Of a stretch of DNA of 51,647 nucleotides, positions 47,630-51,645 are shown piece by piece; position 1 is the stretch's first letter, and each line of letters opens with the position of its first letter. The notes beneath the pieces are model-generated. The model ran no database searches, was not told where the DNA came from, and saw only the letters and a program-made list of their open reading frames with translations. The stretch comes from Methanobacteriota archaeon. GTDB taxonomy: Archaea > Thermoplasmatota > Poseidoniia > Poseidoniales > Poseidoniaceae. A program made the position numbers and the translations under genes. The stretch lies in NCBI GenBank assembly GCA_002706065.1, contig PAJM01000037.1, forward strand, positions 1-51,647. Direction: 5' to 3'.

Positions 47630-47668
47630 TTCCGATTGCCTCATATGTTGGGACACTCTCCTGCTACC

Positions 47669-47896
47669 ATGGCAGAGGACAAATCTACGGACTTAACTGA
47701 ATTCGAAGCGGGTCTTTTGCAATGGTTGTGCGAAAAGAACTTTCATGCCGAGCCATGGTCGACAAAAAAAGCAGCGAAACAATTCTTCGTTGAAGAGGAA
47801 ACAATCTACGAAGCTGTTGCCGCTTTGACACGGAAAGTCCCACAACGCATTCAAGTCTTTTACAAGAACGGTGCTTTGCACATCGCTGCGGATTGA
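47669..47896 (+). CDS. Small winged-helix-like protein
   Basis: 75 aa from ATG 47669; the frame is open 11 codons further upstream to 47636, with another ATG at 47645. Helix-strand pattern (TEFEAGLLQWLCEKNF, STKKAAKQFFVEEETIYEAVAALTRKVPQRI, then a beta hairpin IQVFYKNGALHIA) resembles a winged helix, but I cannot place a family. It follows gpsA by about 40 bp and could be a small regulator (inference). Confidence 0.6.
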   Translation: MAEDKSTDLTEFEAGLLQWLCEKNFHAEPWSTKKAAKQFFVEEETIYEAVAALTRKVPQRIQVFYKNGALHIAAD

Positions 47897-47897
47897 T

Positions 47898-48848
47898 TTA
47901 TTCTTCGTCGAATCTCTGAACCCATGATGAAGGGAGAAGTACTGTCCAAAATGGATGCATTTTCTTCGTCATGTCATCTTTGAAGAGGGAACGGGTAACC
48001 TTGGAAACGAAATCAAGAATCAGGACAACAATGAAAATAACGATTACATATGCAAAGACTTTGTCATACTGAAGGAAATCGAGGTAGAGATTGATGTAAT
48101 AGCCAATCCCTCCCGCTCCAACAATTCCAATTACAGTACCGTGTCTGAAATTGTACTCAAACATAAAGATCGCTTGAGAAATGAGATTGTTTGCGGATTC
48201 GGGGAGAATGACACCAAAGGAACGTTCAAGCCAACCATGACCCATCGCACGTGATGCATCAAGTTGTGGTTTAGCAACACCTTCGATTGCTTCATACTGC
48301 AACTTTCCAAGATAACCAACCGTGTAGATTGTCATAGCCATGATTCCTGCCATGGGTCCAAGTCCGACCATAATCACGAACAACAATGCCCAAAGAATAC
48401 TTGGCAGACTTCGGAATGCTGCGAGGAAGGTTCGAGCAGGGTAGGAAATCCAAGCAGGACTGAGATTTTCAGCAGCGAGCAGTGCAATCGGATACGAAAT
48501 GAACATACCAAATACGGTGGCAATGAATGCAATTTTCAGGGTTTCAAGAACTCCAATCCATGCTGTTGAACACGTGAATTCGAGGAGTTTAGGTTCTTCA
48601 CACACAGGATAGGCTTGAGGTTCTAAGACACTCCAATCGGGTGGCCACAAGGACTCCCTGAAGAACGTCTGAACATTTCTCGGACTCTCAAACAACTTCT
48701 GCCAATTTCCTTCAATCGTTGAGTGGGTAACCATTACGGCAAGAACGGCTAATGTAACAAAAACCGCCGGCCAGCGCCATTGATACCATGCATTGAGGAA
48801 GGGAGTTGGCTTTTCTTCCAACTCGTATTTCTCACGATGCTCATTCAT
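47898..48848 (-). CDS. phnE: Phosphonate-type ABC transporter permease
   Basis: 316 aa with about six helices and a polar ~75-residue loop after the first. The coupling-helix motif for the ATPase reads YEAIEGVAKPQLDASRAMG, with HGTVIGIVGAGGIGYYINLYLDFLQYDK later, as in PhnE. ATG 48848 has GAGGAGG upstream and overlaps the PhnC stop by eight bases. Forms the membrane channel with PhnC. Confidence 0.88.
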   Translation of the reverse strand: MNEHREKYELEEKPTPFLNAWYQWRWPAVFVTLAVLAVMVTHSTIEGNWQKLFESPRNVQTFFRESLWPPDWSVLEPQAYPVCEEPKLLEFTCSTAWIGVLETLKIAFIATVFGMFISYPIALLAAENLSPAWISYPARTFLAAFRSLPSILWALLFVIMVGLGPMAGIMAMTIYTVGYLGKLQYEAIEGVAKPQLDASRAMGHGWLERSFGVILPESANNLISQAIFMFEYNFRHGTVIGIVGAGGIGYYINLYLDFLQYDKVFAYVIVIFIVVLILDFVSKVTRSLFKDDMTKKMHPFWTVLLPSSWVQRFDEE

Positions 48849-49536
48849 GAACTTCATCCTCCTCATTGAAAATTTCAACGAGTTTGTTACCTTCTGCGGT
48901 AAACAAACGATCCGCCATCTGTCGTGCGCGATTTAGATCATGCTCAACGAGAACCATGATCGCATTGTTTTGCTTCACATAGTCTAGAACTTTCTTCATC
49001 ACCATGATCAGAGTTTCTTCATCGAGTTCTGCAAGAAATTCATCAGCTAAAATCAAGCGTGGCTTTTGAGCGAGCGTCCTCGCTACGGCAACACGTCGTT
49101 GTTGACCTCCTGAGAGTTTTCGGATGGGCGTTCTGAGTTTGTGAGTTAATCCAACCGATTCGATGGCTTGCAATGAAACCGGCTTGCAGATCGATGAGAA
49201 TGGAAACCAAGCAGAGGTGTGACCTGCTTTTGCCCCAAGCATCACATTGTGGTATACGCTCGCATGTCGGATCAATCCCAATCGTTGTGGGATGTATCCT
49301 ACTTCACCACGTCGTATCGTCGAGGAACCAAAAACGGAGACTCCACCTTTCACCGGATTCAAGAGCCCCGCCAACGTTCGCAACAATGTTGTTTTCCCAA
49401 TTCCAGAAGCGCCATTGATAGCAATGATTTGCCCTTCCTTGAACTCAAAGTTGATGTTGGTAATCAAAGGATTGTGCTTTTCATAACCCACAGAGAGATC
49501 TTGGCCAACAACAACATCATGCTCGGCCAAGTACAT
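48841..49536 (-). CDS. phnC: Phosphonate-type ABC transporter ATP-binding subunit
   Basis: 231 aa. Walker A GASGIGKTT, Q-loop YIPQ, signature LSGGQQRR, Walker B LILADEFLAELD, and the H-loop VEHD are all intact. It energises uptake with PhnE and the tandem PhnD-like protein. The Asp-Glu following Walker B is present (ADE), so catalysis should be normal. The GTG at 49539 gives one more codon. Confidence 0.9.
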   Translation of the reverse strand: MYLAEHDVVVGQDLSVGYEKHNPLITNINFEFKEGQIIAINGASGIGKTTLLRTLAGLLNPVKGGVSVFGSSTIRRGEVGYIPQRLGLIRHASVYHNVMLGAKAGHTSAWFPFSSICKPVSLQAIESVGLTHKLRTPIRKLSGGQQRRVAVARTLAQKPRLILADEFLAELDEETLIMVMKKVLDYVKQNNAIMVLVEHDLNRARQMADRLFTAEGNKLVEIFNEEDEVHE

Positions 49537-49584
49537 CACCCTGCGCCCAAAATAGGCTACCCACTACATCAAGCTCGTACGGTA

Positions 49585-50600
49585 TCAAATATCGTATTTT
49601 CCGTCAAAGTACGCAGCAATACCTGGTACGTTTGAGATCGAATCGGAATAACTGCCCATGTGTTCTTGGGTGTTGACAGCAATGAGTCCTCCTGTGTTGA
49701 GAATCTCATCAAGGATTGAGTCACCGCACATGTTTGGTGTAATCTCTCGGTCAACATCATGTGTGATTTTGTTGTAACAGTAACCTGCACCTTCATCAAT
49801 CCATTCTTCGCCATTCATGTCCATGAGGGCGTTCAGAATTGCCGCACGGGTGTACATGTCCATCATTTCCGGGTTGTACATGACTGGGTGGCTCGGAGCC
49901 TTTCCAAACAATGGAAGAGCAACGTAACCAGATGAGCCGTCTTCATTCTCAAGGCACCAATTACGTTGCTTTTGGACACAGTTGTAATCATAAGTTGTGT
50001 CTGCAATGAAAGCGATGTCGCCACGGTCCTCAGAAAGGCATCGGAGTGCTCCTTCGTAGCTGTAGTAGAAATCACCAGATTCTGGAATCGATGCGTCCTC
50101 GTTGAAGAAGTTGAAAATCGTCGAACGAAGTGAGGCAACATCATTTGGATCACCGATCACTTCTGCATACCCATTCCCTATCAAGTAGCCCATTGGAAGG
50201 AGCATACCCGCGGATTTCAACCAGCCTGTGTGGCAAGATGTTTTGCCCTCAAACAGTGCAAATGGATCGGTCGAGTCGTCGTCATCGAGGAATGCCTGTG
50301 CCATGTCGCTGTCTGCTCGGACGTATGCCTGAGCCCCATACCATGACCGTCCATCAGGCTTCAAATCAGCAGCGAGTGCAGAGAGGCCATACTCTTTCCA
50401 TCCGACCCATGCTGCACCTCCGTCCATGAATCCAATGTCAGCATGACCAAATCGAAGAGCTTCGATGATTGCTCCTTCGGAGGAAACGTCGTACAATTCG
50501 ACACTAACTCCAAGTTTCTTGGAGAGTCGGTCTGCGAGGATTTGTGGATTTGCATCGATGTTTTCGTATGTGTCGCGAACTTCGTAAGCGATCACGATTG
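49585..50600 (-). repeat. Tandem domain copy 2 of the PhnD-like gene
   Basis: Codes for residues ~349-686. It aligns with copy 1 (50635-51563) at about one-half to two-thirds amino-acid identity by eye, with clear DNA similarity in the SCHTGWLK and YLIGNGY regions. This is direct evidence of an intragenic duplication. Confidence 0.8.
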
Positions 50601-51645
50601 GGTCTTTCGTAGGCGATACCGATGTGTTGACGCCGTATTTACCGCCGTAGTAGGCTTGAATTCCAGGGATGTTTCGAATGGCTGCTGAATATGTACCTAG
50701 GTGATCTTCTGTGGTTCCAACATCGACAATTCCGCTTGGGGAATTGATGATATCATCGAGAATATCTTCACCTTCGTCGTTGTTCTCCATGTCAACAAGT
50801 ACCTTGCGAACAATGTCGGCTTTCTCGTCGCTCATGGTTTCAGGGTTGTACATTACTGGATGACCTGGTGCACGTCCAAACAGTGGCAATTCGACGTATT
50901 GGCTTTCATCAAGACACCATGAGTTGCTGTCTGCACGGTCAACGCAGTAGTAGTCGAGTGTGGTGTCAGCGACGAATGCAATGTCTCCTCTGTCTTCAGA
51001 CAAACACTTCAGCGCACCTTTGTAGCTGTAGTATGTGTCACCCGATTCCGGAATTGATGCCTCTTCGTTAAAGAATGCGTAGATGGTATTTCGCATCGAC
51101 TCAACCGTGTTTGGATCACCGATGACATTCGCATATCCATTGCCGATGAGGTAACCCATAGGCAGGAGCATACCTGCGGACTTGAGCCATCCTGTGTGGC
51201 AGGAGGTCTTGCCTTGGAATAGTGAGAATGGGTCGGTGTACAAGTCATCGTCAAGGTGTGCTTGCGCCATATCACTGTCTGCGTGAACAACTGCTCGTGC
51301 ACCATACCATGTGCGACCATCTGGTTTTGTTTCAGATGCGAGAACGGCGAGATCGTACTGTTGCCAGCCAACCCATGCTGAGCCGCCATCCATAAATGCG
51401 ATGTCAGCATGACCGAAGCGGAGGGCTTCGATTGATGCTCCTTCGGAATCGACAGCATACAATTCAACTGGAGCGTTGAGTTTCTCTTCAAGATAGTCTG
51501 CAAATCGTTGTGGGTTGTCGTCGATGTTGGTGTAGGTGTCACGAACCTCATAGGCTACGACCAAGGAATCGATTTGTCCAAGCTCGTCAACATCATTTTC
51601 GTCAGATACATCACCAAGACATCCAGAGAATGAAAACATCAACAT
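49585..51645 (-). CDS. Tandem-duplicated PhnD-like substrate-binding protein, 5' end beyond the window
   Basis: 686 visible residues. The N-terminus reads MLMFSFSGCLGD, the end of a lipobox (F-S-G-C), so the start and signal peptide probably lie outside the window. Two copies of a PhnD-type (PF12974-like) domain follow, about residues 29-337 and 351-686, in register at ~322 residues. They share GKTSCHTGWLKSAGMLLPM, YLIGNGYA-VIGDPN and LSEDRGDIAF. The C-terminal copy carries an insert with two Cys near its end. It is probably tethered outside the membrane and delivers ligand to PhnE/PhnC. The ligand (phosphonate, phosphate, phosphite or other) cannot be told. Confidence 0.88.
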   Translation of the reverse strand: MLMFSFSGCLGDVSDENDVDELGQIDSLVVAYEVRDTYTNIDDNPQRFADYLEEKLNAPVELYAVDSEGASIEALRFGHADIAFMDGGSAWVGWQQYDLAVLASETKPDGRTWYGARAVVHADSDMAQAHLDDDLYTDPFSLFQGKTSCHTGWLKSAGMLLPMGYLIGNGYANVIGDPNTVESMRNTIYAFFNEEASIPESGDTYYSYKGALKCLSEDRGDIAFVADTTLDYYCVDRADSNSWCLDESQYVELPLFGRAPGHPVMYNPETMSDEKADIVRKVLVDMENNDEGEDILDDIINSPSGIVDVGTTEDHLGTYSAAIRNIPGIQAYYGGKYGVNTSVSPTKDPIVIAYEVRDTYENIDANPQILADRLSKKLGVSVELYDVSSEGAIIEALRFGHADIGFMDGGAAWVGWKEYGLSALAADLKPDGRSWYGAQAYVRADSDMAQAFLDDDDSTDPFALFEGKTSCHTGWLKSAGMLLPMGYLIGNGYAEVIGDPNDVASLRSTIFNFFNEDASIPESGDFYYSYEGALRCLSEDRGDIAFIADTTYDYNCVQKQRNWCLENEDGSSGYVALPLFGKAPSHPVMYNPEMMDMYTRAAILNALMDMNGEEWIDEGAGYCYNKITHDVDREITPNMCGDSILDEILNTGGLIAVNTQEHMGSYSDSISNVPGIAAYFDGKYDI
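50635..51563 (-). repeat. Tandem domain copy 1 of the PhnD-like gene
   Basis: Codes for residues ~28-337, the N-terminal copy. A short linker rich in Thr/Pro (VSPTKDP) separates it from copy 2. Confidence 0.8.

Follow-up and report, generated by a model that had tools for sequence, protein, structure and literature searches.

Transferrins are textbook eukaryotic proteins of unsettled origin, represented in animals by serum transferrin, lactoferrin, ovotransferrin and melanotransferrin (PF00405). The bacterial ferric-binding protein FbpA has been called the 'bacterial transferrin' (PMC9957567), and the phytotransferrin ISIP2a of diatoms mediates carbonate-dependent iron uptake (reviewed in PMC7676907). 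PhnD, PtxB and HtxB, which serve phosphonate, phosphite and hypophosphite, respectively, belong to another family (PF12974), and a published survey of Marine Group II (MGII) archaea counts phosphonate transport as a core trait of the group (PMC6336850).

We analyzed a stretch of 51,647 nucleotides (the window), which is the whole of contig PAJM01000037.1 of a Poseidoniaceae archaeon (assembly GCA_002706065.1). A gene at its end, read in the preliminary description as a double-headed PhnD-like binding protein with a phosphonate-type ligand, very probably encodes a lipid-anchored two-lobed transferrin of an MGII archaeon that would work with an ABC importer for Fe(III) under iron-sensing control.

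The archaeal protein shares with the animal transferrins two lobes of ~330 residues, the four ferric ligands, the anion-site threonine, the SCHT/KCL cysteine pair and the fold, and both groups include members with one ligand-less lobe. It differs in having a lysine for the anion-site arginine and in combining a lipoprotein anchor with an ABC importer, whereas the animal proteins rely on a receptor and endocytosis. With PhnD, PtxB and HtxB it has in common the superfamily, the ABC operon and a PhnE-type permease, but the Asp, Thr, His and Cys residues are missing from those proteins, and the PhnD-like protein of locus L074 does not match PF00405. FbpA would work alike, as a periplasmic clamp with tyrosine ligands, a synergistic anion and an ABC importer; it belongs, however, to a separate branch of binding proteins, and the window protein matches no FbpA family in Pfam or NCBIfam. 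ISIP2a shares the setting of ocean plankton and a transferrin-like capture of iron but belongs to the Fea1-type surface proteins of eukaryotes and is internalized by endocytosis, and the Fea1 profile is not among the Pfam matches of the window protein.

A two-lobed lipoprotein with an old internal duplication

The gene and its two lobes map as follows.

49585..51645, minus strand: bilobal transferrin-family substrate-binding lipoprotein gene, 686 codons (PF00405 3.2e-33, PF12974 5.7e-41, PDB transferrin matches, lipobox)
50626..51570, minus strand: N-lobe, approximately residues 26-340 of the 686-residue ORF, with D86, Y114, Y208 and H262, T151 and K155, and C149/C214 (residue mapping)
49588..50625, minus strand: C-lobe, residues 341-686, with D408, Y436, Y530 and H586, T473 and K477, C471/C536, and the insert cysteines C623 and C640 (residue mapping and AlphaFold2 lobe model)

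The frame is open up to 2 bases before the contig end; the true start is therefore missing and ~20 residues are cut at the 5' end. The closest full-length relative (L064, same genus) is 94% identical and 705 residues long, and its ~20 extra residues form the signal peptide before the lipobox, whose Gly-Cys is invariant among 19 bilobal homologues.

The tandem arrangement put forward in the preliminary description holds: the repeat period of the two homologous domains is exactly 322 residues (given there as ~322), the GKTSCHTGW loop is found in both copies, and copy 2 has a C-terminal insert with two cysteines, C623 and C640, both invariant in the 19 bilobal homologues. The copies are 67% identical in protein (313 aligned residues) and 64.5% in DNA, with only 39% identity at third codon positions, and the same bilobal gene is present in many separately assembled genomes. 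An assembly duplication, raised earlier as a possible artefact, is rejected because of this third-position divergence and because independently assembled relatives have the same layout. The comparison indicates instead an old duplication that has been kept by selection. The concern that relatives might carry a single domain under a different gene model also falls away, as both architectures are genuine and intact.

Profile and fold searches identify transferrin lobes

The window protein matches the Pfam transferrin profile PF00405 with 115.7 bits (cut-off, 20.3) in four stretches that cover both copies. It also matches PF12974, as the preliminary description had it, and this profile scores higher than PF00405 in whole-protein bits. 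The PF00405 signal reflects more than a shared superfamily, since it is absent from all 14 control genomes, 12 of which have PF12974 matches. Scores against the PhnD equivalog TIGR03431 (63.8 bits; cut-off, 261.1) and against TIGR01098 (92.5 bits; cut-off, 112.05) lie below threshold.

Among the chains listed, a phmmer search of the PDB with the window protein retrieved lactoferrins, ovotransferrins, serum transferrins and melanotransferrin (best, 1.4e-24), and a profile built from single-lobe relatives retrieved melanotransferrin at 2.2e-55, with 60 of the 60 chains listed belonging to the transferrin family. The best 50 PDB fold matches of an AlphaFold2 model of the whole bilobal protein (pLDDT 82) are all transferrins; the TM-scores are low (0.31-0.42), as is to be expected if the angle between lobes differs. 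The C-lobe modeled alone (mean pLDDT 92.6) aligns to the ovotransferrin N-lobe with TM-scores of 0.64/0.67 and also to PtxB structures (TMt up to 0.80), so fold alone is indecisive. Profile matches, fold, diagnostic residues and phylogeny together identify the domains as transferrin lobes, and the PhnD label is wrong in substance.

Ferric ligands, anion site and phylogeny

The ferric ligands of lactoferrin, D60, Y92, Y192 and H253, align with D86, Y114, Y208 and H262 in the first lobe and with D408, Y436, Y530 and H586 in the second. The corresponding codons, with ligand roles assigned by alignment, are listed below.

51388..51390, minus strand: codon of D86, N-lobe (lactoferrin D60)
51304..51306, minus strand: codon of Y114, N-lobe (lactoferrin Y92)
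51022..51024, minus strand: codon of Y208, N-lobe (lactoferrin Y192)
50860..50862, minus strand: codon of H262, N-lobe (lactoferrin H253)
50422..50424, minus strand: codon of D408, C-lobe
50338..50340, minus strand: codon of Y436, C-lobe
50056..50058, minus strand: codon of Y530, C-lobe
49888..49890, minus strand: codon of H586, C-lobe

At the anion site, at the start of helix 5, both lobes keep the threonine (T151, T473) and have lysine for arginine (K155, K477), a residue that varies within the transferrin family, being serine in the melanotransferrin C-lobe. The SCHT...KCL cysteine pair (lactoferrin C115-C198) is present in both lobes and is 99% conserved over 72 lobes. GKTSCHTGW, which had been predicted to be a ligand loop, thus contains in SCHT the transferrin anion/disulfide motif.

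We counted ligand sets by lobe in homologues from 40 loci, drawn from families f1 and f2 and the sister order f3. Ligands, anion-site threonine and cysteine pair are shared by almost all of the single lobes and N-lobes. The Asp-Tyr-Tyr-His set (DYYH) occurs in 20 of 23 single-lobe proteins (the others: EYYH, DYNH and one with an unknown letter) and in 15 of 24 N-lobes, with DYFH in one more. For the 24 C-lobes the figures are 12 with DYYH, four with EYYH and seven in which the set is lost, all of family f2. These f2 C-lobes read SREE, QSAT, NSND and so on, all four ligands having been replaced, and they parallel the dead C-lobes of some animal transferrins. In six f2 loci (L038, L039, L041, L042, L070 and L072) such a bilobal protein lies beside a separate single-lobe gene that keeps the ligands.

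The f2 proteins would suit an arrangement in which the lobes do different jobs, one binding iron and the other the permease or another ligand. The window protein and the other f1 and f3 bilobals, however, retain the full set in both lobes (DYYH or EYYH), which makes such a division unlikely. The earlier suggestion that the two domains bind two different compounds is likewise not favored for the window protein, whose lobes have the same four ligands, although in the f2 relatives the second lobe has lost them.

The transferrin reading is further supported by comparison with eight PhnD-like plasmid proteins, which lack Asp, Thr, Lys/Arg and the Cys pair and have only the first Tyr of the set, except that three MntR-linked members retain the His and second Tyr as well. 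Maximum-likelihood analysis separated the transferrins, prokaryotic and animal together, from the PhnDs with support of 100/100. The animal and prokaryotic groups stand apart (100/99 and 80/81) in this tree, in which branches are long and the animal proteins are represented only by those segments that the PDB search aligned. Because the archaeal N- and C-lobes group together within the prokaryotic side, bilobality probably arose separately in archaea, apart from the animal duplication.

The adjoining importer genes

Two genes next to the transferrin gene encode the remaining parts of an ABC importer.

48841..49539, minus strand: ABC ATPase of the importer, PhnC-like (PF00005 1.7e-28; TIGR02315 139.7 against a cut-off of 266.1, below the PhnC equivalog)
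47898..48878, minus strand: ABC permease of the importer, PhnE family (TIGR01097 241 bits, cut-off 216.7; PF00528 1.9e-19); the start may lie downstream

The order transferrin, ATPase, permease recurs in almost all loci of relatives. With an adjacent ATPase and permease and a lipobox, the protein has the features of an ABC-importer binding protein, and its earlier assignment to such an importer stands.

A small ORF of 86 aa (47636-47896), with a weak match to Tap RNA-binding, lies between the permease gene and a glycerol-3-phosphate dehydrogenase gene and is kept at the same spot in ~60 loci. In f3 (L162-L167, L170-L173, L052 and L053), the transferrin set is followed by a gene for a 308-residue membrane-anchored protein (SSYEEDLGT), which also follows FTR1 in L162; this protein may be part of the iron system.

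Association with a putative iron box and exclusion of FTR1

The motif TTAGGNNNNCCTAA occurs upstream of 102 of 127 homologues, at 4.13 per kb compared with 0.017 per kb elsewhere (1.28 Mb), an enrichment of ~240-fold; it was first noticed in intergenic regions of f3 and only afterwards counted across all loci, which makes f3 the discovery set and f1 and f2 the test. We counted 138 boxes in 109 unique upstream regions against a mean of 0.045 in shuffles, and the density upstream of other genes is 0.098 per kb. The motif is close to the half-sites of the known DtxR/IdeR iron-box consensus. This resemblance, and its position beside DtxR and FTR1 genes, suggest that it is a putative iron-regulator operator. 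The promoter of the window gene lies off the contig, and its iron box is predicted solely from the nearest relatives (L064 and L068).

The distribution of the iron permease FTR1 points in the same direction. Among 40 genomes, 23 have the transferrin, 10 have FTR1, none has both and seven have neither (Fisher p 2.3e-5, treating related genomes as independent). The two systems also share slots. In f3, one and the same DtxR gene has either FTR1 or the three-gene transferrin set as its divergent neighbor, and boxes lie in the gap. In two f2 genomes (G078 and G098), a boxed FTR1 lies between the glycerol-3-phosphate dehydrogenase side and a secreted-protein gene, which is the transferrin slot of relatives. 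The FTR1 gene in the shared slot carries the same motif in both f2 and f3. Gene neighborhoods elsewhere point to iron as well: a homologue on a Natronococcus occultus plasmid (L073:7827-8890), used only for its neighbors because its frame is broken, adjoins intact ATPase, permease and iron-dependent repressor genes, and a UBP7-type bacterial homologue lies in the haem/iron cluster described below.

Searches of the class found no FeoB (60 genomes) and no Nramp match over the cut-off (40 genomes). A FecCD permease is present in eight of the 60 genomes, including that of the window, so the transferrin importer need not be its only iron route.

Instead of free Fe(III) with carbonate, the cargo of a transferrin-type protein might be Mn(III) or another hard metal, or else chelated ferric iron (as citrate, siderophore or haem). 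Transferrins do accept several hard metals (PMC9957567), alphaproteobacteria have distant PhnD-like homologues next to MntR, the anion-site arginine is replaced by lysine and a UBP7 homologue lies near haem genes. Neither the Asp nor the SCHT motif is present in the MntR-linked proteins, however, and these are not members of the transferrin clade; in addition, the box is similar to iron boxes of the DtxR/IdeR type, and the slot's other occupant is an iron permease. We therefore hold a different cargo to be unlikely. A genuine binding protein for phosphonate (or phosphite) that was duplicated within a PhnCDE importer is a highly improbable reading, for although the PF12974 match, a permease above the PhnE equivalog cut-off and the PtxB alignments would be accounted for, the sub-threshold TIGR03431 and TIGR01098 scores, the transferrin-type rather than PhnD-type residues, the iron-type box with FTR1 exclusion and the lack of PhnJ (C-P lyase, the one phosphonate pathway searched) in all 60 genomes of the class speak against it.

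On Roseibium, Leisingera and Martelella plasmids (L074, L075 and L160), a phosphonate-annotated importer with a PhnD-like protein that keeps Tyr, Tyr and His, without the Asp and SCHT, lies beside genes for MntR and cytochrome c peroxidase; it is probably a mislabeled importer of a metal, perhaps manganese. The loose NCBI name 'PhnD/SsuA/transferrin family substrate-binding protein' also covers the PhnD-like L156, which has no iron ligands.

Proposed mechanism and evolutionary implications

We propose that the lipoprotein is displayed on the outward-facing side of the membrane, where each lobe would act as a two-domain periplasmic-binding-protein clamp closing on one Fe(III). The metal would be held by the Asp, two Tyr and the His, with carbonate as the probable synergistic anion at the Thr/Lys site, and two tethered lobes would provide two iron sites per anchor. 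The loaded protein would then dock on the neighboring PhnE-family permease, and ATP hydrolysis by the neighboring ATPase would drive iron into the cell. A DtxR/IdeR-type regulator is predicted to repress transcription when iron is sufficient, and FTR1 would often replace the transferrin system where the latter is absent.

On balance, we also favor a broader proposal, in which ABC-linked prokaryotic transferrins would be the stock of animal transferrin, marine archaea would have evolved the bilobal form on their own, and the 'phosphonate uptake' of MGII would be an iron-regulated, carbonate-dependent Fe(III) uptake exchanged slot for slot with FTR1. A prokaryotic group with a complete iron site, one- and two-lobed and ABC-coupled, would be the missing link that joins animal transferrin to periplasmic binding proteins, and would represent a second, apparently independent, invention of bilobality. 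The presumed diet of one of the most abundant planktonic archaeal groups would change, in an ocean poor in iron, from phosphonate transport to Fe(III) uptake. Were carbonate the synergistic anion, ocean acidification should reduce uptake, as reported for diatom phytotransferrin. Our literature search, which covered mainly open-access papers, found no report of archaeal or ABC-linked transferrins with a complete site.

Distribution in Poseidoniia and beyond

PF00405 matches occur in 74 of 293 genomes of the phylum, namely in both families of Poseidoniales and in the sister order f3, besides three stray genomes. When GTDB genomes were scanned, 270 relatives came up, and almost all of the 80 retained carry the titles Poseidoniales, Thalassarchaeaceae or Euryarchaeota, which places the organism in MGII; the MG-II chromosome CM001443.1 is among the relatives. 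One- or two-lobed transferrin genes, with genes for an ABC ATPase and a PhnE-type permease next to them, are common in Poseidoniia (MGII and its sister order). The two-domain form, thought at first to be uncommon next to a standard single form, is thus one of two common architectures in the class. In 60 genomes of the class, the places with PF12974 over cut-off are the same genes as those matched by PF00405, where both were searched. Our data suggest that the 'phosphonate transport' trait of MGII rests on this transferrin-type protein.

No relative was found in the viral contigs scanned. Weak PF12974 matches in two genomes (G067 and G124) lie in frames that read as formate dehydrogenase and do not match the lobe profile, and these genomes were counted as lacking the system. 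One contig titled bacterial (L118) has MGII synteny and was not counted as bacterial. The bacterial relatives L142 and L091 are of UBP7 type. There, the single-lobe transferrin (L142:1-4915 and L091) lies in a haem/iron cluster, with genes for FecCD, an ATPase, Peripla_BP_2, a HugZ-like PNPOx protein and haem oxygenase, and has no PhnE-type permease of its own nearby. An 815-residue frame in L043 / L122, with an internal run of N, is possibly misjoined or a three-lobe transferrin.
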